From Candidatus Eiseniibacteriota bacterium (lineage in GTDB: Bacteria > Eisenbacteria > RBG-16-71-46 > JAFGJU01): a stretch of 32,497 nt of DNA. The stretch is taken from the NCBI GenBank assembly GCA_020349905.1, contig CP070702.1, positions 2,147,956 through 2,180,452 of the forward strand, given 5' to 3'. Numbering within the stretch: position 1 is the stretch's first letter; each line of letters starts with the position of its first letter. Shown piece after piece: positions 8,351 to 21,871 of this stretch. The notes beneath the pieces are model-generated. The model was not told the origin of the DNA and made no database searches. It saw only the letters and a list, made by a program, of their open reading frames with translations. A program made the translations under genes and the position numbers.

Positions 8351-8731
8351 CTAATCCGATGTGGATGTAGCCTCTTCAATAACACTCGCCAGTAGCTTAC
8401 CGTCAACCGGCTTGCTCAGGAAGCGAAAGACGCCGCAACTCCTTGCACGAGCCCTAGTCTCTGGGGAACCGTAGGCGCTTATGACAAGGACCTTGGCTGT
8501 GGGAATCCTCCTCTTGGCCGCGGATGCAACCTCCAACCCATCCATGCCTTCAAGTTTCAGGTCTGTTATCACAACATCGAACTGCTCTGACTCCAACAAC
8601 CGAACGGCCTCTTCACCGGAGGCTACAATGACCACTCGATAACCTCGCTTCGTGAGCTCCTGTGAAATAGACCATCGCAGAAGCTTCTCGTCCTCGACAA
8701 CTAGTATGCGTGGCTTACGTTCGAGTTTCAT
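8351..8731 (-). CDS. stand-alone response-regulator receiver protein
   Basis: 126 residues consisting only of a CheY-like receiver domain. Phospho-acceptor site D57 (VVITDLK), acidic residues E13/D14, S85 (VLVISAYG) and K107 (FLSKPVDG) are all in place, so it should accept phosphate. No output domain follows. Its opening (ILVVEDEKLLRWSIS) closely resembles that of the NtrC-type regulator 400 nt upstream (VLVVDDEKLLRWSVA), suggesting duplication of that regulator's receiver. It may compete for phosphate from the heme-motif kinase or act as an intermediate or sink. No clear ribosome site precedes the ATG. Confidence 0.85.
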   Translation of the reverse strand: MKLERKPRILVVEDEKLLRWSISQELTKRGYRVVIVASGEEAVRLLESEQFDVVITDLKLEGMDGLEVASAAKRRIPTAKVLVISAYGSPETRARARSCGVFRFLSKPVDGKLLASVIEEATSTSD

Positions 8732-9147
8732 TGGTATCGGTCCACGACTGCTTCTTTAGGCGGGACGTGCGAAGTTCGCGCGGAAAGGGACCGGAACTCG
8801 GTCTTGCCAACAGACAGCAGCAATTTTCGTGACAGAAATGAAGGTTTGGCCTGGGGAAATTGACTTGATCTCACCGAGGTATACGTCAATTAACCTTTTT
8901 AATTACAAGGCCCTACGACAACGGGCAGTCAGGTCTGACGGTCCGGGATTATCTCCCCGTCGATCAGCCACGTTCGTCTGCTAGTGAGGGGGATTTCACC
9001 CACCCAGAGTGGGTTAAGCACATACGTGAACGCGAAAGAGAGGTGGAGACGAGAGGGAATCGGCGGAGTTCAGGAGGCACGCCGGGGTACACGAAGACCG
9101 GGTCTGTTCCAATCGGGGCAGCCGTGGCATTCTACTGTGGACCGTCC
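8732..9147. other. 416-nt gap between receiver gene and NtrC-type regulator
   Basis: No supported gene; short open frames here lack family features. It holds an inverted repeat AATTGAC/GTCAATT (8858-8864 and 8885-8891, 20-nt spacer) next to an AT-rich run at 8889-8907. Near 8999-9017 there is a small hairpin (ACCCAC/GTGGGT) without a T-tract. Minus-strand promoter-like elements near the AT-rich run are poorly spaced. The receiver gene probably has its own control here, or the gap is decayed coding sequence. Confidence 0.4.
8858..8891. repeat. inverted repeat AATTGAC-N20-GTCAATT
   Basis: Perfect 7-bp arms at 8858-8864 and 8885-8891. The region lies about 130-160 nt upstream of the receiver gene and is bordered by an AT-rich run. 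It could be an operator or a weak stem-loop. No function is demonstrated. Confidence 0.35.
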
Positions 9148-10569
9148 CTACCAGAGGACTTTCTTCTCGATCCGATATTTCTTCATGCGGTAGCGGAGAG
9201 TATCTCTAGAGATGCCCAGGAGTTTCGCCGCACGCACCTGGTTTCCCGCCGATCTCTTCAAAGCGTCAATGATGAGCTGTCGTTCCACATCCGGCAGGGA
9301 AGGGCCTGAGTCGTTAGGAGGCTCGCGGCCGGAAGCCTGTGCTGCCGCTGTCATGCCACTGCGCGCTAGCTGCGTGGGCCGGAGAGCGTCACCCGGAACC
9401 CGGATTTCCATTGGGAGGTGGTGGAAATCTATGCGGTCCTCCTTTTCAAGAAGAACGATTCTCTCGAGAAGATTTCTGAGCTCTCTGACGTTGCCGGGCC
9501 AATCGTACGCAACAAGAGCGTCCATTGCTGCCGGGCTTACGTCGATAGGGGGACGATGATTCTCTTCGCAAAACTGTCTCACGAAGTTCATCGTAAGATG
9601 AGATATGTCTTCTTTCCTCGCTGAGAGGGGCGGCAGCTCGATGGGGACAACCTTGAGTCTATAGTACAGATCTTCCCTCAACTGTGCTTCTCTTACCGCC
9701 TGTTCCACTTCTCTGTTGGTCGCAGCGATTATTCTCACATCCACTTCTATGTCCCTTCTACCCCCCAACCTCTTGAACGTCTTATCCTCGATCAGTCTCA
9801 GCAACTTCGTCTGAAAGCTCGGATTCATCTCCGCAATCTCATCAAGGTACACAGTGCCTCCGTCAGCCAATTCAAACAGACCTTCCCTCGAGGTCCTTGC
9901 GTCGGTGAACGTACCCTTTTCATAGCCAAACAGCTCACTCTCTAGAAGCGACTCCGGAAGAGCAGAACAGTTTATCGTCACAAACGGAGCAGCGCTTCTC
10001 TCACTGCCGGAATGAATGGCCTGAGCGAAGAAATCCTTGCCCGTGCCTGTCTGGCCTGCCAGAAACACCGTGAGAGACCGGCTGGCGGCTACCTTCTTCG
10101 CCTGGCTGACCACGCGCTTCATGACCTGCGACTCAGCCACTACATCGTCAAACGTGACCTGTTTTCTGTCCCGCCTCCTCCAGGTCACTTCTCGCTCCAA
10201 CTTCCTGTGTTCCAGGGCACGCTTTACTATGACCTCTATCGCCTCCGGTTCGAGTGGCTTGATGAGATAATCAAATGCTCCCAGCTTCATCGACTCAACG
10301 GCTTCTCTGACTTCGGAGAAGGCGGTCATCATTATGACGACGCTCTGATGTGCTTCGTCGCGCAAGATGCGAAGGATCTCTATGCCCGACTTCCCTGGAA
10401 GCCGGACATCCATTAGAATCACGTCGACCCTGGACCTTCGCACGAGTTCAAGGGCGCTCTCTCCGTCCGCGGCCTCTTGTACTTCGAACCCCTCTTTCCT
10501 GAGAGGTTCAGCAACCGACCAGCGGAGCAGCTTCTCGTCATCAACAACTAGAACCTTGGGAGACGCCAT
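9148..10569 (-). CDS. NtrC-family sigma-54 dependent response regulator
   Basis: 473 residues from ATG 10569, chosen over 10590 because GGGGAGG lies 5 nt upstream. Order of domains: receiver (phospho-Asp D54, Lys K104), AAA+ ATPase of the sigma-54 activator class (Walker A GQTGTGKD, Walker B GGTVYLDEI, arginine-finger region REDLYYRLKV, WPGNVRELRN), then a C-terminal Fis-type helix-turn-helix (GNQVRAAKLLGISRDTLRYR). The sigma-54 contact loop reads GTFTDA instead of GAFTGA. It should activate transcription from -24/-12 promoters when phosphorylated. It overlaps the 3' end of the kinase gene by 29 nt, making the two a cognate pair. Targets are not evident; cytochrome or heme genes are the contextual guess. 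Confidence 0.93.
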   Translation of the reverse strand: MASPKVLVVDDEKLLRWSVAEPLRKEGFEVQEAADGESALELVRRSRVDVILMDVRLPGKSGIEILRILRDEAHQSVVIMMTAFSEVREAVESMKLGAFDYLIKPLEPEAIEVIVKRALEHRKLEREVTWRRRDRKQVTFDDVVAESQVMKRVVSQAKKVAASRSLTVFLAGQTGTGKDFFAQAIHSGSERSAAPFVTINCSALPESLLESELFGYEKGTFTDARTSREGLFELADGGTVYLDEIAEMNPSFQTKLLRLIEDKTFKRLGGRRDIEVDVRIIAATNREVEQAVREAQLREDLYYRLKVVPIELPPLSARKEDISHLTMNFVRQFCEENHRPPIDVSPAAMDALVAYDWPGNVRELRNLLERIVLLEKEDRIDFHHLPMEIRVPGDALRPTQLARSGMTAAAQASGREPPNDSGPSLPDVERQLIIDALKRSAGNQVRAAKLLGISRDTLRYRMKKYRIEKKVLW

Positions 10570-12058
10570 TTCTTCCTCCCCGGTTTTCATCTCCTACGGG
10601 GATGAAAACCGAAAAGCTACTTCCTTGACCCGGTGTGCTCTTTACATCTATAATGCCGCCGTGCTCTTTAACAATCCTCTGCGCTATGGAGAGTCCGAGC
10701 CCCGTGCCCTTGTGCTTCGTCGTAAAGAACGGATCGAAGATCTGGCCCAGTATCTCCTTATCCACTCCGTGCCCCGTATCCGTCAGGTCGACCCTCACGA
10801 ACGGCTTTCTGTGGGGAGGCCGAGCCTCCAAGTGCGTCGCAATCTCGAGAGTTCCTCCATCCGGCATAGCCTGGATCGCATTTAGCATCAGATTCAGAAA
10901 CACCTGCTGAATCTGTTTTTCGTCGACCATTGCGCTCGGAATGTGCGCCGAGAATCGACTTACCACGCCGATGTTCTGCCCCTTCATCTGCGGCATCAGG
11001 AGCGACAGCGTGCTGGAAACGATATCATTGATACCGGACAGTTTCAGTTCCGGCCTTGGGGGTCTGGCGAAGTCCAGCAGGTCCCTGACTGTATTCCCAA
11101 GTCGCTCGACCTGCACCAACATTTCGTCGAAGATCTCTCTCTTCGGGTCGTCTTCACGAATCTCGTCTGCAATGATGTGGATGGCGCCGGAAATGCCCGC
11201 CAGGGGATTCTTGATCTCGTGTGCCAGACCTGCTGCCAGTTGTCCCAGCGAAGCCAATCTCTCGGCCTTCTCCATTTGCTCGGCGTGGTAACGCCTGAGG
11301 TCGGCCTGCGCCGTTTCTAACTCACTGACCATGACGTTGAACGCAGTGGTGAACTCAGCGATCTCATCCTGCCCAGTAACCTCTGCTCTGGCAGAGAGAT
11401 CTCCTGCTTCAACTCTCTTCATTGTCTGGACGAGTGGAGCTACTCGCTTATCTATCATAGTCCTTACCACAATCCAGGTGCCAAGACCAATGCATAACAT
11501 CACAATTGCATTGGCAACAATTGTGGTGGATGTACCGATTGCGTTTTCCCTCTCGCTCTCGCCTGCCAGCAGCTCGGTGTTGATGAATCCCAACACGGCC
11601 TTGGTGCCGTGGCAGTCCCAGCAACGCTTCCTATTCGCGACTGGTTTCACATAGCTAAACACCCGTTCCTGGCCGGTCTTCGTGACAGACAGTCGCTGCT
11701 TCTTGAGTGCCCTGTCAAGTATTGCAGGGGGCGCTGCCATACCTTCTTCTTCCGGCAGAGACGATTTGAGAACGACGCCCTTCTCGTCGAATATTCTCAC
11801 CGACAGGACTTCCGGCTTGGCCTGTGCTCTCAGGAGCACCTCTGAGACGCGGCCGGCCGGACCCAACTCCATCTCTCTCACAAGCATGGCTTCAATAGAC
11901 TCTTCGAGCATGCTGACGTTTCGTTCCGCCGCGCGGCGGAAGGCCAGCCGTTCTCTTTCTATGGTGAGCAGACTCGACAAAACCACTCCCAGGCCCACGA
12001 TGAGTATCACGCCGGTGACCAGTCGTACTCTCAGGCTCTTGAACAGACTAAGTTCCAT
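10541..12058 (-). CDS. sensor histidine kinase with periplasmic heme c motif (CWDCH)
   Basis: 505 residues. Membrane segment 1 (about 11-31), an extracytoplasmic sensor region (about 32-175), segment 2 (about 176-199), HAMP (about 198-250), HisKA with phospho-acceptor H280 (LAHEIKNPLAG), and a HATPase domain (N-box around N393, DTGHGVD, TGLGLS). The sensor region contains C146-W-D-C149-H150-G, a CXXCH covalent heme c site located just before the second membrane segment, as in Tll0287-like/DUF3365-type and Geobacter heme-PAS sensors. It probably senses redox state, a gaseous ligand or cytochrome maturation in the periplasm and phosphorylates the overlapping NtrC-type regulator. Start 12058 lies 27 nt after hemL, suggesting co-transcription with heme genes. 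Heme binding is predicted, not shown. Confidence 0.92.
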   Translation of the reverse strand: MELSLFKSLRVRLVTGVILIVGLGVVLSSLLTIERERLAFRRAAERNVSMLEESIEAMLVREMELGPAGRVSEVLLRAQAKPEVLSVRIFDEKGVVLKSSLPEEEGMAAPPAILDRALKKQRLSVTKTGQERVFSYVKPVANRKRCWDCHGTKAVLGFINTELLAGESERENAIGTSTTIVANAIVMLCIGLGTWIVVRTMIDKRVAPLVQTMKRVEAGDLSARAEVTGQDEIAEFTTAFNVMVSELETAQADLRRYHAEQMEKAERLASLGQLAAGLAHEIKNPLAGISGAIHIIADEIREDDPKREIFDEMLVQVERLGNTVRDLLDFARPPRPELKLSGINDIVSSTLSLLMPQMKGQNIGVVSRFSAHIPSAMVDEKQIQQVFLNLMLNAIQAMPDGGTLEIATHLEARPPHRKPFVRVDLTDTGHGVDKEILGQIFDPFFTTKHKGTGLGLSIAQRIVKEHGGIIDVKSTPGQGSSFSVFIPVGDENRGGRNGVSQGSSC

Positions 12059-12085
12059 CTGCCAGTTGCCCTCTTGCTCAAGGAA

Positions 12086-13384
12086 TCAGCTGCCTGGTCC
12101 GCTAACGAAGCGGAATGCACTGCCCGCAGCGTCTACAGTCGCTGAAATGTCCCGCTTCGTGTGAGCAAGCGACAGAAAACACGTCTCGAACTGGGAGGGG
12201 GGAAACAATACACTACGCTCCTTGAGCTTCGAGAAAAAGCGAGCGTAAGCAGCAGTGTCCGATTCCTTCGCCTCTTCGTAGCAGCGGACCTCGCCACTTC
12301 GGAAGAACACGGTGAACATCGAGCCCACGGTGTTGATGACCACGTCAACTCCAGCCTCGCGCGCCCGTTCCCGTATTCCGCGCACGAGCTCCGCCGTCTT
12401 CTTCTCCAGCTCAGCGTAACGGCTCTTGCGCTTAAGGAGGCGCAACGTGGCGACCCCGGCAGCCATGGCCACCGGGTTTCCAGAGAGTGTTCCCGCCTGA
12501 TAGACCGGCCCCTGGGGAGCGAGTTCCTTCATGAGCCTAGCCTTCCCTCCGTAGGCTCCCACGGGAAACCCTCCGCCTACTATCTTGCCGAGGCACGTTA
12601 TGTCGGGCGCAATGCCCAGCATGTTCTGTGCACCCCCGAAGCAAAGTCTGAACCCGGTGATGACTTCGTCGAATATGAGCAGAGCGCCGTAGCGGTTGCA
12701 CGCCTGCCTGAGTGCGCGCAGGAACTTGAGAGTCCCGGGTACGACTCCCATGTTGCCGGCTACGGGTTCGACTATAACGGCCGCGACTTTCCGGCCGACG
12801 GTTAACATCGCTCTCTCGAACGTGGAGACGTCGTTATAGGGAAGGGTCAGCGTTGACCGGGCCAGGGAGGAAGGCACTCCCGCACACTGCGGTATTCCGA
12901 ACGTGGCCAGGCCGGACCCGGCCGCAGAGAGAAAACTGTCTGCGTGTCCGTGGTAGCATCCGCTGAACTTCACCAGCACCTCTCTACCGGTCGCTGCACG
13001 CGCCAACCTCAGAGCGCTCATCGTTGCCTCCGTTCCGGAGCTGACAAACCTCACCATCTCGACGGACGGAAAGGCGTCAGTGACGAGCTGCGCCATCTCC
13101 ACTTCTATCGCGGTGGAAAGGCCGAAACTGCTTCCCTCTGCAAGCGCCTTTCTGACGGAGGCCATCACCTGAGGATGGCCGTGGCCTGCTATCAGGGGCC
13201 CCCAGGAACACAGGTAGTCCACGTAGCTGTTCCCGTCCACGTCGTAGACTTTTGCCCCCCTTGCTCTGCTCGCGAAGATAGGCTCTCCGCCCACAGCGCT
13301 GAAGGCCCTGACCGGGCTGTTGACCCCGCCCGGAATGAGACCGCGTGCTTTACGGAACAATCTCTTTGAACGAGCTGTCCCCAC
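12086..13384 (-). CDS. hemL: glutamate-1-semialdehyde 2,1-aminomutase
   Basis: 432 residues, full length for HemL, a PLP enzyme converting glutamate-1-semialdehyde to 5-aminolevulinate in the C5 pathway. Visible marks are PGGVNSPVRAF near the N-terminus, SSGTEATMSALRLAR, FDEVITGFR, and the PLP lysine in CLGKIVGGGFPVGAYGG. The start is GTG 13384 with AGGAG about 10 nt upstream. It is the last heme gene of the cluster and is separated from ahbB by about 245 nt holding a tandem repeat array, so it may have separate control. The kinase gene follows 27 nt downstream. Confidence 0.95.
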   Translation of the reverse strand: MGTARSKRLFRKARGLIPGGVNSPVRAFSAVGGEPIFASRARGAKVYDVDGNSYVDYLCSWGPLIAGHGHPQVMASVRKALAEGSSFGLSTAIEVEMAQLVTDAFPSVEMVRFVSSGTEATMSALRLARAATGREVLVKFSGCYHGHADSFLSAAGSGLATFGIPQCAGVPSSLARSTLTLPYNDVSTFERAMLTVGRKVAAVIVEPVAGNMGVVPGTLKFLRALRQACNRYGALLIFDEVITGFRLCFGGAQNMLGIAPDITCLGKIVGGGFPVGAYGGKARLMKELAPQGPVYQAGTLSGNPVAMAAGVATLRLLKRKSRYAELEKKTAELVRGIRERAREAGVDVVINTVGSMFTVFFRSGEVRCYEEAKESDTAAYARFFSKLKERSVLFPPSQFETCFLSLAHTKRDISATVDAAGSAFRFVSGPGS

Positions 13385-13431
13385 CTGGAATGCTCTCCTC
13401 TCGTCTGTGCTGGCGTCACAACTGTGTTGTT

Positions 13432-13533
13432 ACCGACTCAACTGTATTGACCGCTCAAGTGTATCACTCGCTCGACCGTATCGCCGGCTCATCTGTATTA
13501 CCCACTCAAGTGTATCTTCCGCTCGACTGTACC
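13432..13533. repeat. tandem array of a 17-bp degenerate repeat upstream of hemL
   Basis: Six units in exact 17-bp register: 13432-13448, 13449-13465, 13466-13482, 13483-13499, 13500-13516 and 13517-13533. Plus-strand units read like ACCGACTCAACTGTATT, GACCGCTCAAGTGTATC, ACTCGCTCGACCGTATC and ACCCACTCAAGTGTATC. The shared core is CTCAASTGTAT (minus: ATACASTTGAG). Weaker extra copies occur near 13412-13428, 13398-13411 and 13570-13584. The period is not a multiple of 3 and the array lies between the ahbB stop and the hemL start, so it is not coding repeat sequence. It might be a multi-site operator, a weak promoter series (ATACACT resembles a -10 element) or a minisatellite. Confidence 0.75.
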
Positions 13534-13630
13534 AGGGGCCCACCTACATCCCTCCTCTACCGCATCATTGGCCCAACTGTATTACCACCTCAACGAAGAG
13601 AATTTCAGCATGGCCATGCCACGAATCTCG

Positions 13631-14092
13631 TCAGTCTATCTCCCAGCTCGTCTTCTTGAATTCCTTCTCGGTGAACAGGAGCTTGTATTCCTCAAGACCC
13701 GTCGCGGCCGACATTTTCCTAACTGACTCCTCGCAACGCTCCATGTCATCTGCGTGAATCATAGTGAAAAGGTTGTACTCCCACCCCTCGAAGGTCTCTC
13801 TCTCGTAGCAGTGGCTCACTTCGCTGAAGCCTGCCATGATCCTGCCCGCTTCCTCCAGCTTCTCGGGGTGACATTTCCAGACAGCCATGACGTTGACCTT
13901 CTTGCCGACCCTCTTGTGAGCCAGAATGGCCCCGAACCGCCTTATCTTTCCCTCCTCGAGCCAATGCCTTATGGTCGACAGCACGTCGTCTTCCGAGACT
14001 CCCAGTCTGAGGGCGATGTCCTGAAGCGGCCTTCTCACGACCGGGACGTCTCGCTGCAGAAACCGTACGAGTTCCTTCATGTCCTCTCTCAT
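13631..14092 (-). CDS. ahbB: siroheme decarboxylase, AhbB-type subunit
   Basis: 153 residues. Lrp/AsnC-like fold: an N-terminal helix-turn-helix-like part (LQDIALRLGVSEDDVLSTIR) followed by RRFGAILAHKRVG and GFSEVSHCYERETFEGWEY, the signature segment of the siroheme decarboxylase subunits that bind substrate near the conserved His. With AhbA it converts siroheme to 12,18-didecarboxysiroheme in the alternative heme pathway. It follows ahbA by 33 nt. Lrp-type regulators have the same fold, but the paired paralogs inside a heme operon with ahbC and ahbD make the enzyme assignment secure. Confidence 0.92.
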   Translation of the reverse strand: MREDMKELVRFLQRDVPVVRRPLQDIALRLGVSEDDVLSTIRHWLEEGKIRRFGAILAHKRVGKKVNVMAVWKCHPEKLEEAGRIMAGFSEVSHCYERETFEGWEYNLFTMIHADDMERCEESVRKMSAATGLEEYKLLFTEKEFKKTSWEID

Positions 14093-14125
14093 CGGCAGTC
14101 ACGTCTATCGGGCTGCTGTGTTCCT

Positions 14126-14572
14126 TCAAATGTCGAAGACCGTTCTCACCTTGAACGTTCTCTTCGCCCTCAGAAGGTGAAGAGAACATCCGGCGAATTC
14201 CTCTATTGCCCGCACTATCTCCTGGATTCTCTCCTGCGACGAGGCGGTTATTGTAAACCACAGGTTGTATCTACTCTTCCGCGAGTAGTTGTGCGTCACT
14301 TCTTTGAAGCTGCTGACGTAGGAAGCCACTTCTTCCAGACGCTCCGGCGCAACACACATTGTGGCCAGCACGCTCTTGTAACCGAGTGCGGCCTGGTCGA
14401 AGACGGCGCCGATTCTCCGGATTACTCTTTTTGCCTTGAGTTCCTGCACGCGCTTCAGAACGTCTCCTTCTTCCACTGAGAGCCGCTCGGCCACCTTCGC
14501 AAACGGCTCAAGCACCAGGGGAAAGTCGTTCTGCAGAATCAAGAGGAGCTCCCGTTCGTGTGCGTTGTCCAT
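14126..14572 (-). CDS. ahbA: siroheme decarboxylase, AhbA-type subunit
   Basis: About 149 residues from ATG 14572. The Lrp-like fold includes RRIGAVFDQAALGYKS and FKEVTHNYSRKSRYNLWF, with the conserved His-Asn-Tyr-Ser-Arg segment of AhbA. It partners AhbB in decarboxylating the two acetate side chains at C12 and C18 of siroheme. The start is uncertain: a GTG at 14611 extends the frame by 13 residues, but the AGGAGG there is only 1 nt away. ATG 14572 gives the usual N-terminus (MDNAHERELLLILQ) but has a weak ribosome site. Confidence 0.9.
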   Translation of the reverse strand: MDNAHERELLLILQNDFPLVLEPFAKVAERLSVEEGDVLKRVQELKAKRVIRRIGAVFDQAALGYKSVLATMCVAPERLEEVASYVSSFKEVTHNYSRKSRYNLWFTITASSQERIQEIVRAIEEFAGCSLHLLRAKRTFKVRTVFDI

Positions 14573-14629
14573 GTTTGCTTTCACTGATTGCGCGCTGCTA
14601 CCTTTCTCCACGCCTCCTGAAAGTCGTAC

Positions 14630-15754
14630 TCACTTCCTGGCGCTTCCCGGCCTGCGAGCGCTGGTACGCCTCTCTGCTGCCTCGGAAGGAGTATAGTCAC
14701 AGAAGGGTTCTTCTGCCAGATACTCGCCGGTCATCGCAAAGGACCTGGCCCTGCAACCTCCGCAGACTTTTCTGAATTCGCAGTATCCACACGTCCCGTG
14801 ATATCGCTCGAAATCGCGCAGTGAGAGGAAGAACGGCGATTCCCTCCATATCTTATCAAAGCTGTCATTCTTCACGTTCCCGGCGCTTATGTCCAAAAAC
14901 CCGCACATCTGCACGTCACCGACGTGCGATATGAAGCAGAACGAAGAGCCACCCATGCAGCCTCGCGTAAGGGAATGAAGCTGCTCCGACTTCTTCTCTG
15001 GAGTCCCCTTCTGTCCCAAGATTCTGTGGTAGTGGGGAGCACAGGTCGGCTTAAAGTCTAGGGGGGTCCTGCCGCTTTCCTCGTAGACCCAGGTCAGGAC
15101 TGTTTCGTACTGTGCGGGGCTGAGTTCCTCTTCTGCGAGCTCCTTTCCCCTCCCTGTGGGCACCAGAAGAAACGGATGAAACGCACAGGCTCCAAGCTCC
15201 ACAGCAAGCTCCAGTATGTCTTTCAGCTCACCCAGGTTTCGCCTTGTCACCGTCGTGTTTATCTGAAACTCCATGCCCGCGCGTTTGAGAAACTCGATTC
15301 CCCGCAGCGCGCCGTCGAAGGCACCGCTCTCTCCCCTGAAACTGTCGTGACTCGCGCTGCTGGCACCGTCCAAGCTGATGCTCACTCTCCTGACGCCAGC
15401 CTCCACCATGCGGCGTGCGCTCTCCTCGTCAATGACCGTCCCGCACGAGGCCAGGACGGTCCGCATACCGAGTTCGTTCGCGCGCCGGGCGATATCGTAC
15501 ACGTCGTCTCTCAGAAGGGCCTCTCCGCCCGTCAGAATCAGAATGGGCGTGGATACCAGTGCAATCTCGTCCAGGACCCTCATGCACTCCTCCGTGGTCA
15601 GCTCCCCCTCGTAAGGTTCCCGTTGTGCGGACGCCCTGCAATGAGAGCACGACAGGACGCACGAGCGCGTTATCTCCCATGCGATGAGTCTGGGCACGAA
15701 CCTCTCGGCCTGCCCTGCCGTCGCTTTCTGGCTACGCTGCTTCTCGTTTTGCAT
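14630..15754 (-). CDS. ahbD: AhbD-like radical SAM heme synthase
   Basis: 374 residues. The radical SAM cluster motif is C32-X3-C36-X2-C39 (SCVLSCSHCR), followed by ILTGGEALL and VSISLDGASS. The C-terminal SPASM-like cysteines (CMGGSSFCF, MCGFLDISAGNVKN, TCGYCEFRKVCGGCRAR) bind an auxiliary iron-sulfur cluster. AhbD oxidatively decarboxylates the two propionates of iron-coproporphyrin III to vinyls, giving protoheme. The sequence motifs and the position between hemB and ahbA support AhbD over other SPASM proteins. The tail (ERRTSARRPGSARK) is basic. The upstream gap to hemB is 85 nt. Confidence 0.9.
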   Translation of the reverse strand: MQNEKQRSQKATAGQAERFVPRLIAWEITRSCVLSCSHCRASAQREPYEGELTTEECMRVLDEIALVSTPILILTGGEALLRDDVYDIARRANELGMRTVLASCGTVIDEESARRMVEAGVRRVSISLDGASSASHDSFRGESGAFDGALRGIEFLKRAGMEFQINTTVTRRNLGELKDILELAVELGACAFHPFLLVPTGRGKELAEEELSPAQYETVLTWVYEESGRTPLDFKPTCAPHYHRILGQKGTPEKKSEQLHSLTRGCMGGSSFCFISHVGDVQMCGFLDISAGNVKNDSFDKIWRESPFFLSLRDFERYHGTCGYCEFRKVCGGCRARSFAMTGEYLAEEPFCDYTPSEAAERRTSARRPGSARK

Positions 15755-15839
15755 CTAGTTTCGGTCTTGATTCGGGTCCCGACTCTCGTTCTGGCTCCGC
15801 GTGTCGTCCTCGTTTACCCTTCCCTTCACTCGCACCTCT

Positions 15840-16826
15840 TCAAAACCCATCTCCCCGACCCAGAACCCTCGCCGCCTCTTTAGCGTGATAGCTTATGATG
15901 AAATCGGCGCCGGCCCTCTTGATTGAGGTCAGTATCTCCAGGACGATCCTCTCTCTATCAAGGCAGCCTGACCTCACCGCGCCCTCCACCATTGCGTACT
16001 CTCCGCTCACGTTGAATGCGGCCAGAGGATGTCCGAAGCGCTGCTTCACTCGGTGTATGACGTCAAGATAGGCGAGGGCCGGTTTCACCATTATTATGTC
16101 GGCCCCTTCATCTATGTCCAGAGAAGCCTCTCTGAGAGCTTCCTCGACGTTGGCCACGTCCATCTGGTATGAGCTCCTGTCGCCAAAAGAGGGGGCGCAC
16201 TCTGCTGCGTCTCTGAACGGTCCGTAGAATGCGCTGGCGTACTTCACCGCGTACGAGATAATGACCGCGTTCTGGAACCCCTCTCTGTCGAGTGCCTGCC
16301 TGATGGTCTTCACGCGACCGTCCATCATGTCCGAAGGGGCCAGCGCGTCGGCCCCTGAGCGCGCGTGGGACACCGCGATCTTTGCAAGCAACTCGATTGT
16401 TGCGTCGTTTTCGACTTCCTCCTTGCGAACTACCCCGCAGTGGCCATGGTCCGTGTACTCACAGAGACACACGTCGGTAATCACGAGGACTTCCGGAAGA
16501 GACTTCTTCAGTTGCTCGACGGCCCTCTGTACGATGCCTCCGGCCGCGTAGGCGCCGGATGCCGTCGAGTCCTTCTGCTCGGGGATTCCGAAGAGAATCA
16601 CGCCGCCCAACCCCAGGTCGTTTCCCTCCTTCACCTCGTCAACGAGCTTGTCGATCGAGAAGCGAAAGCAGCCGGGCATAGAAGGAATCTCTTCCTTCAA
16701 TCCCCTCCCCGGAATCACGAAAGCTGGAAGGACGAGATCCCCTGCGTTAAGCTCGGTCTCTCTGACGAGCCTCCGCAGCGGCGCGGACTGCCTCAACCTT
16801 CTAAGTCGTGTAGAAGGAAACTCCAT
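15840..16826 (-). CDS. hemB: 5-aminolevulinate dehydratase (porphobilinogen synthase)
   Basis: About 328 residues from ATG 16826, chosen because AGGAGG lies 5 nt upstream. An in-frame start at 16880 would add 18 residues overlapping ahbC. It condenses two 5-aminolevulinates to porphobilinogen. The zinc-type cysteine cluster is present (DVCLCEYTDHGHCGV), as are the two active-site lysines (SYAVKYASAFYGPFR and IMVKPALAYLD) and the SDMMDGRV segment. All essential residues are present, so it should be active and zinc-dependent. Confidence 0.96.
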   Translation of the reverse strand: MEFPSTRLRRLRQSAPLRRLVRETELNAGDLVLPAFVIPGRGLKEEIPSMPGCFRFSIDKLVDEVKEGNDLGLGGVILFGIPEQKDSTASGAYAAGGIVQRAVEQLKKSLPEVLVITDVCLCEYTDHGHCGVVRKEEVENDATIELLAKIAVSHARSGADALAPSDMMDGRVKTIRQALDREGFQNAVIISYAVKYASAFYGPFRDAAECAPSFGDRSSYQMDVANVEEALREASLDIDEGADIIMVKPALAYLDVIHRVKQRFGHPLAAFNVSGEYAMVEGAVRSGCLDRERIVLEILTSIKRAGADFIISYHAKEAARVLGRGDGF

Positions 16827-16857
16827 TACTTCCTCCTGTCCGATGCCCGAACACGGG

Positions 16858-18048
16858 TCAAGCGCTTCCGATTTCTTCATCGGTGAGGTAGCAGGCCGGG
16901 TCGGGCGCCCAGATGTCGCCGTAAACGGCCTCGGCCCTTACTCTGAAGTTGCCGTTACATATGTCCAGAAACTTGCAGCTGCCGCAGCGTCCTGTCAGGA
17001 GATGTTTCCTGTCTTTGAGGCCCGCCATCAGCGGATCACCTATGTCTGTCCAGATTTCTCCGAAGCGACGCTCCCGCACGTTTCCGAATGAATGGTGACG
17101 CCAGAATTGATCCGGATGCACCTCGCCGGTGGGACCGACGCAGGCGATGGCGATTCCGGAATTGTTGCCTCCGTTCCACCTGAGAAGCTCGAGAACCTTC
17201 TCCGCGCGCTCGGGGTTCTCTTCTCTCATCTTCAGATAGAGAAAGACACCGTCCGTATGATTGTCCACTGTAAGAAGCTCACACGAAACGCCGTCGCGGC
17301 AGAATTCCTTGGTCTTCTCGTAGATAAGCTCCGCCGCGGCCCTGGATTCGTCCAGCGAGACGTCCTCTCCAACCATGCTGGAGCCTCGACCCGCGTAGAC
17401 AAGATGATAGAAGCAGCAGCGCGGTATCTGCTCCGTCTTCAGAAGTTCAAAGATGCGTTCGAGATCGTGGTAGTTGTGCCTGTTTATCGTGAACCGCAGA
17501 CCCACCTTGACACCGGCTTCCCGGCAGTTGCGGATAGCGGTGAGCGCGTCCCGGAACGCGCCCTTTTTGCCCCTGAAGCAGTCGTTAGTCTCTTCCATCC
17601 CATCGAGGCTTACGCCCACGTATGAGAACCCGCTCGCCTTGATTCTCTTTGCGGTTTCCTCGGTTATGAGCACTCCGTTGGTGGAGATTACCGTTCTGAG
17701 CCCCTTTGACACGGCGTAGTCCCCCAGCTCATAGAGGTCCTTCCTGAGCAAAGGTTCACCTCCGGAGAAAAGCAGAACAGGAACGCCGAACTCGGCCAGG
17801 TCGTCTATCATTCGCCTGGCCTCTTCCGTAGACAGCTCGTCGACTCCCCGCCCTGGGCTGGCCTCTATGTAGCAGTGAATGCAGCTCAGGTTACATTGCC
17901 TCGTGGAGTTCCACACGACAATGGGCTTCTTGTCCGTGGAGAACTGCAGAAGGTGCGAAGGGAGTTTCGAACTGTCCCTTCCGTATCTGAGTTCGTCGCC
18001 GATCTCTTCTGTCCCGCATATGAGCTTGGTAAACCCGATCATCTTCAT
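16858..18048 (-). CDS. ahbC: AhbC-like radical SAM, 12,18-didecarboxysiroheme deacetylase
   Basis: 396 residues. Radical SAM motif C52-X3-C56-X2-C59 within VVWNSTRQCNLSCIHCYIE, then LLFSGGEPLLRKD. The C-terminal half carries NGGNNSG, HPDQFWRHHSFGNV and the cysteine set CGSCKFLDICNGN with a later CYLTDEEIG, all hallmarks of AhbC/NirJ-like proteins. AhbC removes two acetate chains to give iron-coproporphyrin III, the substrate of AhbD. NirJ (heme d1) is the near alternative, but the absence of other nir genes and presence of ahbA, ahbB and ahbD favour AhbC. Confidence 0.9.
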   Translation of the reverse strand: MKMIGFTKLICGTEEIGDELRYGRDSSKLPSHLLQFSTDKKPIVVWNSTRQCNLSCIHCYIEASPGRGVDELSTEEARRMIDDLAEFGVPVLLFSGGEPLLRKDLYELGDYAVSKGLRTVISTNGVLITEETAKRIKASGFSYVGVSLDGMEETNDCFRGKKGAFRDALTAIRNCREAGVKVGLRFTINRHNYHDLERIFELLKTEQIPRCCFYHLVYAGRGSSMVGEDVSLDESRAAAELIYEKTKEFCRDGVSCELLTVDNHTDGVFLYLKMREENPERAEKVLELLRWNGGNNSGIAIACVGPTGEVHPDQFWRHHSFGNVRERRFGEIWTDIGDPLMAGLKDRKHLLTGRCGSCKFLDICNGNFRVRAEAVYGDIWAPDPACYLTDEEIGSA

Positions 18049-18080
18049 CCACCTTCCTGTTCACTCACCCGTCTTCCGCC

Positions 18081-19598
18081 TCACTTCGAATAGTAGTCGA
18101 CCATGCACTCCACGAGCCCGTCGATCGTATAGTCTGAAGCCGTGGCTGCGATTCTGAGACCCAGTTCGTGCGCGGTGTTCGTGGTTATGGGGCCGATGCT
18201 GAACAGTTTCACGGCCTTCAGGAGCTTCTGGTTGTCCTTGCCAACCAGTGCCACGAAGTTAGAGCACGTGGAAGAACTCGTGAAGGTGACACAATCCAAG
18301 GTCCTCTTCGAAAGAAGCCGCATCAGGCTTGGTCGTACGCCGCGCGGTCGCACGGTCCTGTAAGCAACTACCTCCGTCACGTCGGCTCCCATCTCTCTCA
18401 GACGTCTCGGGAGCACGTCCCGGGTAGCGGCGGCCCTGGGCAGCAATATCCTCCTGTCTGTCACGTCCATCGACTCGAACAGTCGAACTACTTCCTCAGC
18501 CACGTACTTCTCGGGCATCGCGTCGACTCGAATTCCGGCCCCGGCCAGTCTTTCTGCCGTGGCCGGCCCTATCGTGCATATCCTTATACTTCTCAGCCGC
18601 GAAGGCGCGACCCCAAGTTTTTCCATACGGTCGAGTAGACTGTCGACGCCGTTTGCACTTGTCAGAATGAGCCAGTCGTACTCCTCTATCCGGGCCAGCT
18701 CGGCGTCAAGCTCCGCCCAGCTGTGAGGAGGCTCTATCGAGATCGTGGGTATCTCGATGACTTCAGCCCCCCTCTCTCCCAACAATATGGAGAGGCGCCC
18801 CGCCTGTGCCCTGGTCCTGGTCACCAAGATTCTCCTCCCGAAAAGGGGAAGTATTTCGTACCAGCGCATCTCGCTCCTCAAAGAGACCACGTCGCCGACA
18901 ACCAGAACCGCCGGCGGCTTCACGCCACCGGCCTGGGCCCTGGCAGGCAACGTGGAGAGCGTGCCAGAAACCACTCTCTGCGCGGACGTGGTTCCGTTCT
19001 CTATCACGGCGGCCGGACAACTGCGCTTCATGCCGGCACCCACCAGCCGGGTGCAGATCGTCTTCAGATTCTTGACCCCCATGAGAAACACCAGGGTCCC
19101 GCCGCTCGAAGCCAGGGCGTCCCAGTCCAGGTCGCTGCGCTCCTTCGTTGGGTCTTCGTGGCCGGTCACAAATGTCACGGACGAGGCCTTTCCTCTGTGG
19201 GTCACCGGGATGCCGGCGTAGGCAGGCACTGCAACCGCCGAGGTTATTCCCGGCACTATCTCGAAATCCACGTTCTTCGTTCTGAGGTAGAGGACCTCTT
19301 CCCCGCCCCTTCCAAACACGAACGGATCCCCGCCCTTGAGGCGCACCACGGTCTTGCCGTCCAGGGCTTTCCTGGCCAAAAGCCTGTTTATCTCCGCCTG
19401 CGGCATGGAATGGCGTCCGGCCTGCTTGCCGACGTAAATCTTCTCACCCGTGGAGAACTCCAGCAGCCTCTCGTTTGCCAGCTGGTCGTATACGACTACG
19501 TCCGCCTTCCGCAGCAACTCGCGGCCTTTCACCGTAATGAGGCCGGGGTCACCGGGTCCTGCACCGACGAGATAGACCTTTCCGCGCTCCTTCACCAC
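18081..19598 (-). CDS. cobA-hemD: uroporphyrinogen III methyltransferase/synthase fusion (CobA-HemD)
   Basis: 505 residues in two domains. Residues about 5-245 are the SAM-dependent uroporphyrinogen III C-methyltransferase (YLVGAGPGDPGLIT, VVRLKGGDPFVFGRGGEE, PAYAGIPVTHRG), making precorrin-2. Residues about 252-505 are uroporphyrinogen III synthase HemD (RILVTRTRAQAG, LILTSANGVDS, FTSSSTCSNF). One polypeptide therefore cyclises hydroxymethylbilane and methylates the product, committing it to siroheme. Such fusions occur in Firmicutes, delta-type bacteria and relatives. The GTG start overlaps the hemC stop, with AAAGGA about 9 nt upstream, so translation is coupled. Confidence 0.95.
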   Translation of the reverse strand: MVKERGKVYLVGAGPGDPGLITVKGRELLRKADVVVYDQLANERLLEFSTGEKIYVGKQAGRHSMPQAEINRLLARKALDGKTVVRLKGGDPFVFGRGGEEVLYLRTKNVDFEIVPGITSAVAVPAYAGIPVTHRGKASSVTFVTGHEDPTKERSDLDWDALASSGGTLVFLMGVKNLKTICTRLVGAGMKRSCPAAVIENGTTSAQRVVSGTLSTLPARAQAGGVKPPAVLVVGDVVSLRSEMRWYEILPLFGRRILVTRTRAQAGRLSILLGERGAEVIEIPTISIEPPHSWAELDAELARIEEYDWLILTSANGVDSLLDRMEKLGVAPSRLRSIRICTIGPATAERLAGAGIRVDAMPEKYVAEEVVRLFESMDVTDRRILLPRAAATRDVLPRRLREMGADVTEVVAYRTVRPRGVRPSLMRLLSKRTLDCVTFTSSSTCSNFVALVGKDNQKLLKAVKLFSIGPITTNTAHELGLRIAATASDYTIDGLVECMVDYYSK

Positions 19599-20521
19599 GA
19601 CAACAGTTCCTTTGCACCTTTGGCCAAAAGCTCTTGCCCAAGAGCCACCCCGATGTTCTCAGCGTCCTCCACGCACTTCACCTGGCCGCGCATCTCTCCG
19701 GCGATGCGCCTCGAGCCGTCCGGGGCAGAGATGTCGCCCCGAATCTCGAATTCCTCGCCTTTCCGAGTTGCCAGACTCCCCACCGGTACCCTGCACCCTC
19801 CGCCGAGCGCCGCCAGAAAAGAGCGTTCCGCCACGACTTCGTTTCGAGAGTACGGGTGGTCCAGAAAGCCCACCAGTTCAAGCACGGCCTCGGAGTCGGA
19901 ACGAGCCTCTATTGCTATCGCTCCCTGTCCGGGGGCCGGAAGGCACTCGGCTGCAGGAAACACCTCGGCTATTGAGCTGGCTTTTCCCATGCGAAGCATG
20001 GCTGCCTGGGACACCACGACCGCCTCGTACTGCCCATCATGGACTTTCCTGAGCCTGGTGTCCAGGTTTCCGCGGATTTCGTTCACCTCGACGTCGGGCC
20101 TCTTTCGCAGGACGAAAGCGCGCCTTCTCAGACTCCCAGTTCCCACTCTCGCGCCGGAGTCGAGCCCGGAGAGCAGCTTGTTTTCCCTCGAGACCAGAGA
20201 GTCCAGGGGAGACTCGCGAGGAAGCACGGCCGCCAGAGTCAGTCTGTCAGGTAGCTCGGTGGGCATGTCCTTCAGGCTGTGGACGGCGATGTCAATTCTG
20301 CCAGCGAGCAATTCTTCCTCCAGCTCCTTCACGAAAATCCCCTTCTCGGCAAAGGAAGCGAACGGAGACGCCTTGTCTCTGTCGCCGCCCGTTTTCACTG
20401 TGCTCACTTCCACTTCTAGACGAGGCAGGCGTTGCTGGAGCGCGGCCACCACCAACCGGGTCTGTACCTGGGCCAGCCTGGACCCTCTTGTTCCTACGAC
20501 GATCTTCTCGATACTGCTCAT
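19592..20521 (-). CDS. hemC: hydroxymethylbilane synthase (porphobilinogen deaminase)
   Basis: 309 residues, full length. The dipyrromethane cofactor cysteine is C243 (LGGGCRVPVG) and the catalytic aspartate is D85 (HSLKDMP). TRGSRLAQVQT, GTGSLRRRA and RGNLDTRLRK line the active site. It polymerises four porphobilinogens to hydroxymethylbilane. Its end overlaps the cobA-hemD start. The ribosome site is weak. Confidence 0.96.
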   Translation of the reverse strand: MSSIEKIVVGTRGSRLAQVQTRLVVAALQQRLPRLEVEVSTVKTGGDRDKASPFASFAEKGIFVKELEEELLAGRIDIAVHSLKDMPTELPDRLTLAAVLPRESPLDSLVSRENKLLSGLDSGARVGTGSLRRRAFVLRKRPDVEVNEIRGNLDTRLRKVHDGQYEAVVVSQAAMLRMGKASSIAEVFPAAECLPAPGQGAIAIEARSDSEAVLELVGFLDHPYSRNEVVAERSFLAALGGGCRVPVGSLATRKGEEFEIRGDISAPDGSRRIAGEMRGQVKCVEDAENIGVALGQELLAKGAKELLSW

Positions 20522-20584
20522 ATCTGACTAGAATCCTGGATTGCGGACGCCGTGCCGCCCGCTCACGCCGATGGCGCCGGAGCC

Positions 20585-21871
20585 CTAGCCTGGAGAATCT
20601 CCCTGTTTCTTGTCCAGGTCGAACAGGATCCTGAGTGAGCTCATAAGCTCGAGGCCCTTCTTCTCCGAGGCGGACTTGCGCAGGTTCACCGTCGGAGGAC
20701 GAAGGACTTTGTTGAGCAACGACTCGCTGAACTTCTCGATTTCTCTCTTCTGGTCGTCATCGAGCGTCTTGACCTTAGAGAATAGCCTCTCTACCTCGGA
20801 GTCCCTGATGCTTTCTAGCTTCTTTCGGAAGGAAACAATCGTGGGGGTGGCTTCCAAGCCGTTAAGCCAGGATGAAAACGAAGCCACTCCGGACAACACA
20901 ATCTTCTCTGCCGCCTCGACCTCTTCAGTTCTCTGCTGCATGTTCTGCTCCACTACTCGCTTGAGGTCATCTATATTGTAAAGGAACACGTTTTCCAGTT
21001 TGTCCGCATCGGGCGGTATGTCGCGCGGAACCGCGATGTCCACCAGAAACAACGGTTTGTTCTTTCTCTTGTGAACGAGCTCCGACAGCTGCTCGCTGCT
21101 CATCACGTAATGTGGTGCCGCCGTTGAGCTTATCACTATGTCCACGTCGGTCAGCGCGTCCATCATGGCGGCGAAGGGGACGACCTGCCCTCCGAGCCGC
21201 TTGCTCAGTTCGACCGCCCTCTCCTGGGTTCTGTTTGTCACCAGGACAACCTTCACGCCTCGCTTCACGAGACTCCGGAGCACCAACTCAGCCGTCTCCC
21301 CTGCGCCGATGATCATGGTGGAACGCTGGTCGAGGCCTCCGAATATCTTGACCGCCAGTTCCACTGCCGCGTAGCCGATGGAGACGGGCAACGCTCCCAG
21401 GTTAGTCTCTGTCCTCACCCGCTTGCCCACCTGGATCGCCTGCCTGAAGAGCTTGTTCAGCAGCAAATCGGTCTTCTCCAGTTCCAGTGCCAGCAGGTAG
21501 GCATCCTTGACCTGCCCCAGAATCTGCGTCTCGCCTACGACCATGGCGTCCAGACTGGCCGCCACCCTGAATGCGTGTTGTACGGCGCGGGAGCCTTCGT
21601 AGAAATACAGATGGGAATTCAGGGAGCCTCTCTCAAGGCTGTGGAACGATTCTAGGAACTTCACCAGTCTCTCTTCAGCCTGCTCGAGGGTCGGAACCAC
21701 GGCGTAAATCTCAGACCTGTTGCACGTCTGGAGAATGACCGACTCTTTGAAGAACCCGTCGGTCGTCAGCGTCTCGAGCGCACTCTTCTGCCGGGAGACG
21801 GTGAAGTTTATCTTCTCCCGCACCTCTATGGGAGCAGTGACGTGGTTAAGACCCAGGACTACTATCTGCAC
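20585..21871 (-). CDS. hemA: glutamyl-tRNA reductase
   Basis: 428 residues. The nucleophile C50 is in LQTCNRSEIY, the NADPH-binding region is MIIGAGETAELVLRSL, and the C-terminal helical dimerisation domain is present. It reduces glutamyl-tRNA to glutamate-1-semialdehyde, the first committed and usually regulated step of the C5 pathway. Starts at a GTG inside the end of the Met8-like gene (10-nt overlap) with GGAAGAA upstream. The CcsA/HemX-like protein two genes upstream belongs to the family in which HemX modulates HemA levels, so a regulatory link is possible. Confidence 0.96.
   Translation of the reverse strand: MQIVVLGLNHVTAPIEVREKINFTVSRQKSALETLTTDGFFKESVILQTCNRSEIYAVVPTLEQAEERLVKFLESFHSLERGSLNSHLYFYEGSRAVQHAFRVAASLDAMVVGETQILGQVKDAYLLALELEKTDLLLNKLFRQAIQVGKRVRTETNLGALPVSIGYAAVELAVKIFGGLDQRSTMIIGAGETAELVLRSLVKRGVKVVLVTNRTQERAVELSKRLGGQVVPFAAMMDALTDVDIVISSTAAPHYVMSSEQLSELVHKRKNKPLFLVDIAVPRDIPPDADKLENVFLYNIDDLKRVVEQNMQQRTEEVEAAEKIVLSGVASFSSWLNGLEATPTIVSFRKKLESIRDSEVERLFSKVKTLDDDQKREIEKFSESLLNKVLRPPTVNLRKSASEKKGLELMSSLRILFDLDKKQGDSPG

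Follow-up and report, generated by a model that had tools for sequence, protein, structure and literature searches.

The intergenic gap between ahbB and hemL in a Candidatus Eiseniibacteriota bacterium holds a 17-bp tandem repeat array, which is probably an old, decaying intergenic minisatellite rather than a dedicated hemL control element. We favor this reading because about thirty similar intergenic arrays, each with a different and unrelated unit, lie in 46% of the same genome.

We analyzed a 32,497-bp stretch of genomic DNA (the window) and, using Tandem Repeats Finder (TRF), lag identity and shuffles, confirmed the 17-bp array that an initial annotation had placed between the two genes. 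Its six head-to-tail units span 13437–13538, with starts at 13437, 13454, 13471, 13488, 13505 and 13522, exactly 17 bp apart, so that the described six-unit register stands; the core said to be common to them, CTCAASTGTAT, is exact in three of the six units and carries one or two mismatches in the rest. The degenerate outliers proposed on both sides can be read at 13400, 13417, 13539, 13556, 13572 and 13589, and with these weaker units included the array nearly fills the gap (13385–13630).

12086–13384, minus strand: hemL, glutamate-1-semialdehyde 2,1-aminomutase (TIGR00713, 593.1 bits, cut-off 527)
13385–13630, no strand: ahbB-hemL intergenic gap, 246 bp, mostly array, with gene calls on either side and none inside
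13400–13436, plus strand: two degenerate units on the hemL side, their register set by eye on the core and therefore weak
13400, plus strand: degenerate unit CTCGTCTGTGCTGGCGT, hemL side
13417, plus strand: degenerate unit CACAACTGTGTTGTTAC, hemL side, 20 bp before unit 1
13437–13453, plus strand: unit 1, CTCAACTGTATTGACCG
13454–13470, plus strand: unit 2, CTCAAGTGTATCACTCG
13471–13487, plus strand: unit 3, CTCGACCGTATCGCCGG
13488–13504, plus strand: unit 4, CTCATCTGTATTACCCA
13505–13521, plus strand: unit 5, CTCAAGTGTATCTTCCG
13522–13538, plus strand: unit 6, CTCGACTGTACCAGGGG
13539–13605, plus strand: degenerate units on the ahbB side, at 13539, 13556, 13572 and 13589
13572, plus strand: degenerate unit CCCAACTGTATTACCAC, ahbB side, one core mismatch, 16-bp step
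13631–14092, minus strand: ahbB, siroheme decarboxylase beta subunit (NF040707, 174.7 bits, cut-off 125)

The degenerate unit at 13400 abuts a purine-rich stretch that is a putative hemL ribosome-binding site, and on the ahbB side the units at 13539, 13556 and 13589 are weak compared with the one at 13572. Array units are about 67% alike, and their periodicity is far above chance. TRF returned periods of 17, 34 and 51 at 13419–13531, and identity at lag 17 was 0.65 over 85 bp from 13430, against a background of 0.25; lags 17, 51 and 34 were the top three of all lags from 8 to 79 across the window when 85-bp stretches were compared. The local periodicity score of the gap reached 32 (pair) and 76 (multi-lag), and dinucleotide shuffles of all 440 intergenic gaps sampled from the genome yielded none at 18 or above (pair) or 20 or above (multi-lag). 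The array had been described as non-coding, in agreement with our coding-potential model, which placed no gene in the gap. Two plus-strand frames stay open across it; we rejected hidden coding since the gap scores too low in coding potential to be called a gene and also because each 17-bp step shifts the reading frame.

The surrounding genes form a siroheme-dependent heme cluster on the minus strand (9148–21871 of the window) comprising hemA, hemC, a fused cobA-hemD, ahbC, hemB, ahbD, ahbA, ahbB and hemL. Genes for a histidine kinase and an NtrC-type regulator come next, downstream of hemL, and had been correctly annotated. The model scores of AhbC and AhbD are slightly below their cut-offs.

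The array unit is specific to its locus, being neither common to other arrays nor scattered through the genome. Random scatter of the core, which the initial annotation had proposed to look for, was not seen in a scan of the genome: allowing at most one mismatch, there are 30 single cores, five in the array and 25 outside it, and the reversed-pattern control also gave 25. The paired-unit pattern matches solely at the hemL array in the 2.69-Mb genome. Among 59 other genomes we found no homologous array DNA, only weak matches of 16–31 bases with E-values of 0.002 or worse, the best being a single match of 23 bases. The nearest genomes, from the same family, are without this hemL, and identity to the best orthologues is about 57–59%. 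At about 100 distant loci with hemL or a hemL-like gene, no array of similar strength was found in the 300–330 bp upstream, where the highest periodicity score was 21 versus 68 for the window.

Tandem arrays of this kind are frequent in the genome. We sampled sixty 20-kb stretches together with the window, 1.23 Mb or 46% of the genome in all, and scored every gap of at least 60 bp for local periodicity, finding arrays in 31 of 440 intergenic gaps (7%), compared with about 0.4–1 in shuffles; genes in the sampled stretches were called with a simple hexamer model that may have missed genes holding a few of the arrays, and one possible case (L195:3452) dropped out of the gap set after the minimum gene length was lowered. 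The periods cluster at 15–20 bp (16 of the 31 arrays, including six at 16 bp), as in L171:4845–4933 (19 bp), L173:12610–12684 (15 bp) and L282:9767–9863 (19 bp), and L168:9890–10030 has eight 16-bp units with degeneracy equal to that of the hemL array. The arrays have no common motif, their unit consensus sequences being no more alike than shuffled ones. It is this genome-wide occurrence of comparable arrays in intergenic gaps, their units unrelated, that speaks for the minisatellite among the readings initially offered. Fifteen arrays lie between co-directional genes, nine between divergent genes and seven between convergent genes (7 of 53 convergent gaps); those in convergent gaps count for a minisatellite since a promoter is not expected there. 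Coding tiles hold fewer arrays per length than gaps do, and the periods of these coding arrays are nearly always divisible by three, as produced by repetitive proteins.

The abundance of arrays differs between genomes. Arrays occupy 5 of 42 gaps in one genome of the same family (G001) and 3 of 137 in a second, poorer one (G002), and none of 161 gaps in a distant genome (G058; Fisher P = 8e-5 for our genome versus G058). Both MutS and MutL are present in the genome. A simple repair defect therefore does not account for the many arrays, and we rejected loss of mismatch repair as their cause. An active process in this bacterial family that keeps seeding 15–20 bp intergenic arrays despite mutS and mutL, each from new local sequence, with some of them (the hemL array for one) since co-opted as binding sites specific to their locus, is conceivable, but we regard it as improbable.

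The internal similarities of the arrays bear on how they may have arisen. Several arrays of the genome show neighbour-first similarity, a mark of local duplication, as in L205, where similarity runs from neighbours outward as 0.75, 0.69, 0.63 and 0.57. The hemL array shows no steady fall of similarity with distance; its units are most alike at 51 bp, between units i and i+3 (0.74 versus 0.61 for neighbours), a pattern that joint copying of a three-unit block would produce, and this pairing ranks first among 15 possible ones (P = 0.067). The contiguity of its core (below), the missing steady decay of similarity, this P value of 0.067 and the presence of MutS and MutL count against the minisatellite reading. 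From the repeat pattern, we infer that a 17-bp stretch may have been tandemly duplicated via slippage or unequal recombination, possibly with an additional three-unit, 51-bp duplication step, and that the array would have been decaying since, presumably neutrally and without function, in non-coding DNA that tolerates it. On this reading, the hemL array belongs to the older part of a population spread across the lineage, in which each array would have arisen in place from the local sequence, with most units 15–20 bp long. Any effect on hemL would be indirect, through a longer distance from ahbB to the hemL ribosome-binding site.

Three readings had been offered for the array: a regulator array, a transcript-level element and a minisatellite. 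Whereas the last gained support, the first was weakened. Under it, the array would be a multi-site operator controlling hemL, each unit being one asymmetric candidate site for the NtrC-type regulator or an AsnC/Lrp-type protein, and its conserved columns do form a contiguous 11-bp core beside a near-random 6-bp spacer, more contiguous than neutral decay gives: P = 0.006 (autocorrelation) and 0.05 (block test) against column shuffles and 0.008–0.02 against neutral simulations, values that have to be read knowing that the initial annotation picked this array because its core was visible. The gap is also the largest inside the heme cluster and precedes the hemL, kinase and regulator genes, and AhbA and AhbB themselves carry AsnC-type helix-turn-helix (HTH) domains. 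Operator arrays of NtrC-type and AsnC/Lrp-type regulators likewise consist of several similar sites that precede a gene neighbouring a regulator gene; here, however, the unit lacks dyad symmetry (best self-complement 6, shuffle average 8), and Fis-type and AsnC-type dimers usually bind dyad-symmetric sites. Against an operator also stand the control-level count of cores elsewhere in the genome, the lack of other genomic sites or a detected promoter, the other hemL genes without a comparable upstream array, and the similar arrays in unrelated gaps, convergent ones included. We found no sigma-70 site in the gap and no sigma-54 site in the gap or near hemL, the window total for sigma-54 sites being that expected by chance. 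The core-contiguity test combined over 22 arrays was not significant (P 0.18–0.20), on which grounds we rejected a general core-plus-spacer design. Taken on these points, an operator seems unlikely. Elsewhere in the window, a sigma-54-like site on the minus strand at 8820–8834 (TGTCACGAAAATTGC, one mismatch), a match type at chance level over the window, lies about 90 bp upstream of a single-domain response regulator gene (8351–8731).

The transcript-level reading supposes a leader, an attenuator or a protein-binding RNA repeat in an ahbB-hemL mRNA. If the cluster is a single operon, its mRNA would include the array, and short repeated motifs can bind RNA proteins, yet on either strand the folding is less stable than that of shuffles (z +1.0 and +1.3), the gap contains no promoter-like or terminator-like site, and Rfam gave no match at a meaningful score in it, two weak matches outside the gap being far under their gathering scores. 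With neither structure nor a meaningful Rfam match, a riboswitch or structured leader was rejected, and the transcript-level option as a whole fared badly and is very unlikely. The reading with the smallest chance of being right, and one already largely refuted, is that the array is left over from a mobile or dispersed element: plasmid-style iterons, or REP/BIME-type repeats that a Y1 transposase had mobilised. Its intergenic position agrees with REP elements and iterons are typically direct repeats of 17–22 bp, but the genome lacks a Y1 transposase (PF01797), the unit is not palindromic, the array occupies a single location without dispersed copies, and the adjoining heme-cluster genes examined include no replication gene; the missing transposase led us to reject a Y1-transposase/REP origin.

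As a minisatellite, the hemL array fits a unit definition of more than 10 bp (PMC3899988). Like bacterial intergenic minisatellites and variable-number tandem repeats (VNTR) used in MLVA typing, for example mycobacterial MIRU-VNTR, it is head-to-tail and non-coding with a locus-specific unit and imperfect copies, and there are many such loci per genome. In contrast to these, its units are unusually degenerate, the density of 7% of sampled gaps is high, and the hemL array is known from the copy in one genome. In Mycoplasma hyopneumoniae, many tandem repeats, mostly of that study's SSR classes, lie upstream of genes without a motif common to them, and a regulatory role has been proposed from qPCR (PMC5179023). 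The genome studied here resembles it in having many arrays without a common motif, although M. hyopneumoniae belongs to a very different, pathogenic lineage and the units here are mostly 15–20 bp, with arrays also between convergent genes. The hemL array shows that a striking repeat beside a pathway gene can belong to a genome-wide habit and need not switch that gene. Why short intergenic minisatellites are so abundant in this lineage, with mismatch repair genes present, is a modest question that could be tested in close relatives.

Individual arrays of the sample differ in apparent age and layout. The array at L205:13950–14078 (GATGACACAGGGGGGA; 16 bp, about eight units) has one end that is perfect or nearly so and another that is degenerate; it is a young, polar array, suited to tests of copy-number change. 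In style, the hemL array is most closely matched by L168:9890–10030, where similarity peaks at 48 bp (three units) and the unit is an unrelated one. At L204:7941–8057, between two co-directional genes, a CATACGT core recurs at variable 17–19 bp steps, a layout that resembles spaced sites more than it does a simple tandem repeat. Longer periods occur at L183:6266–6383 (38 bp, three copies) and L014:883–1085 (72 bp, 2.8 copies).
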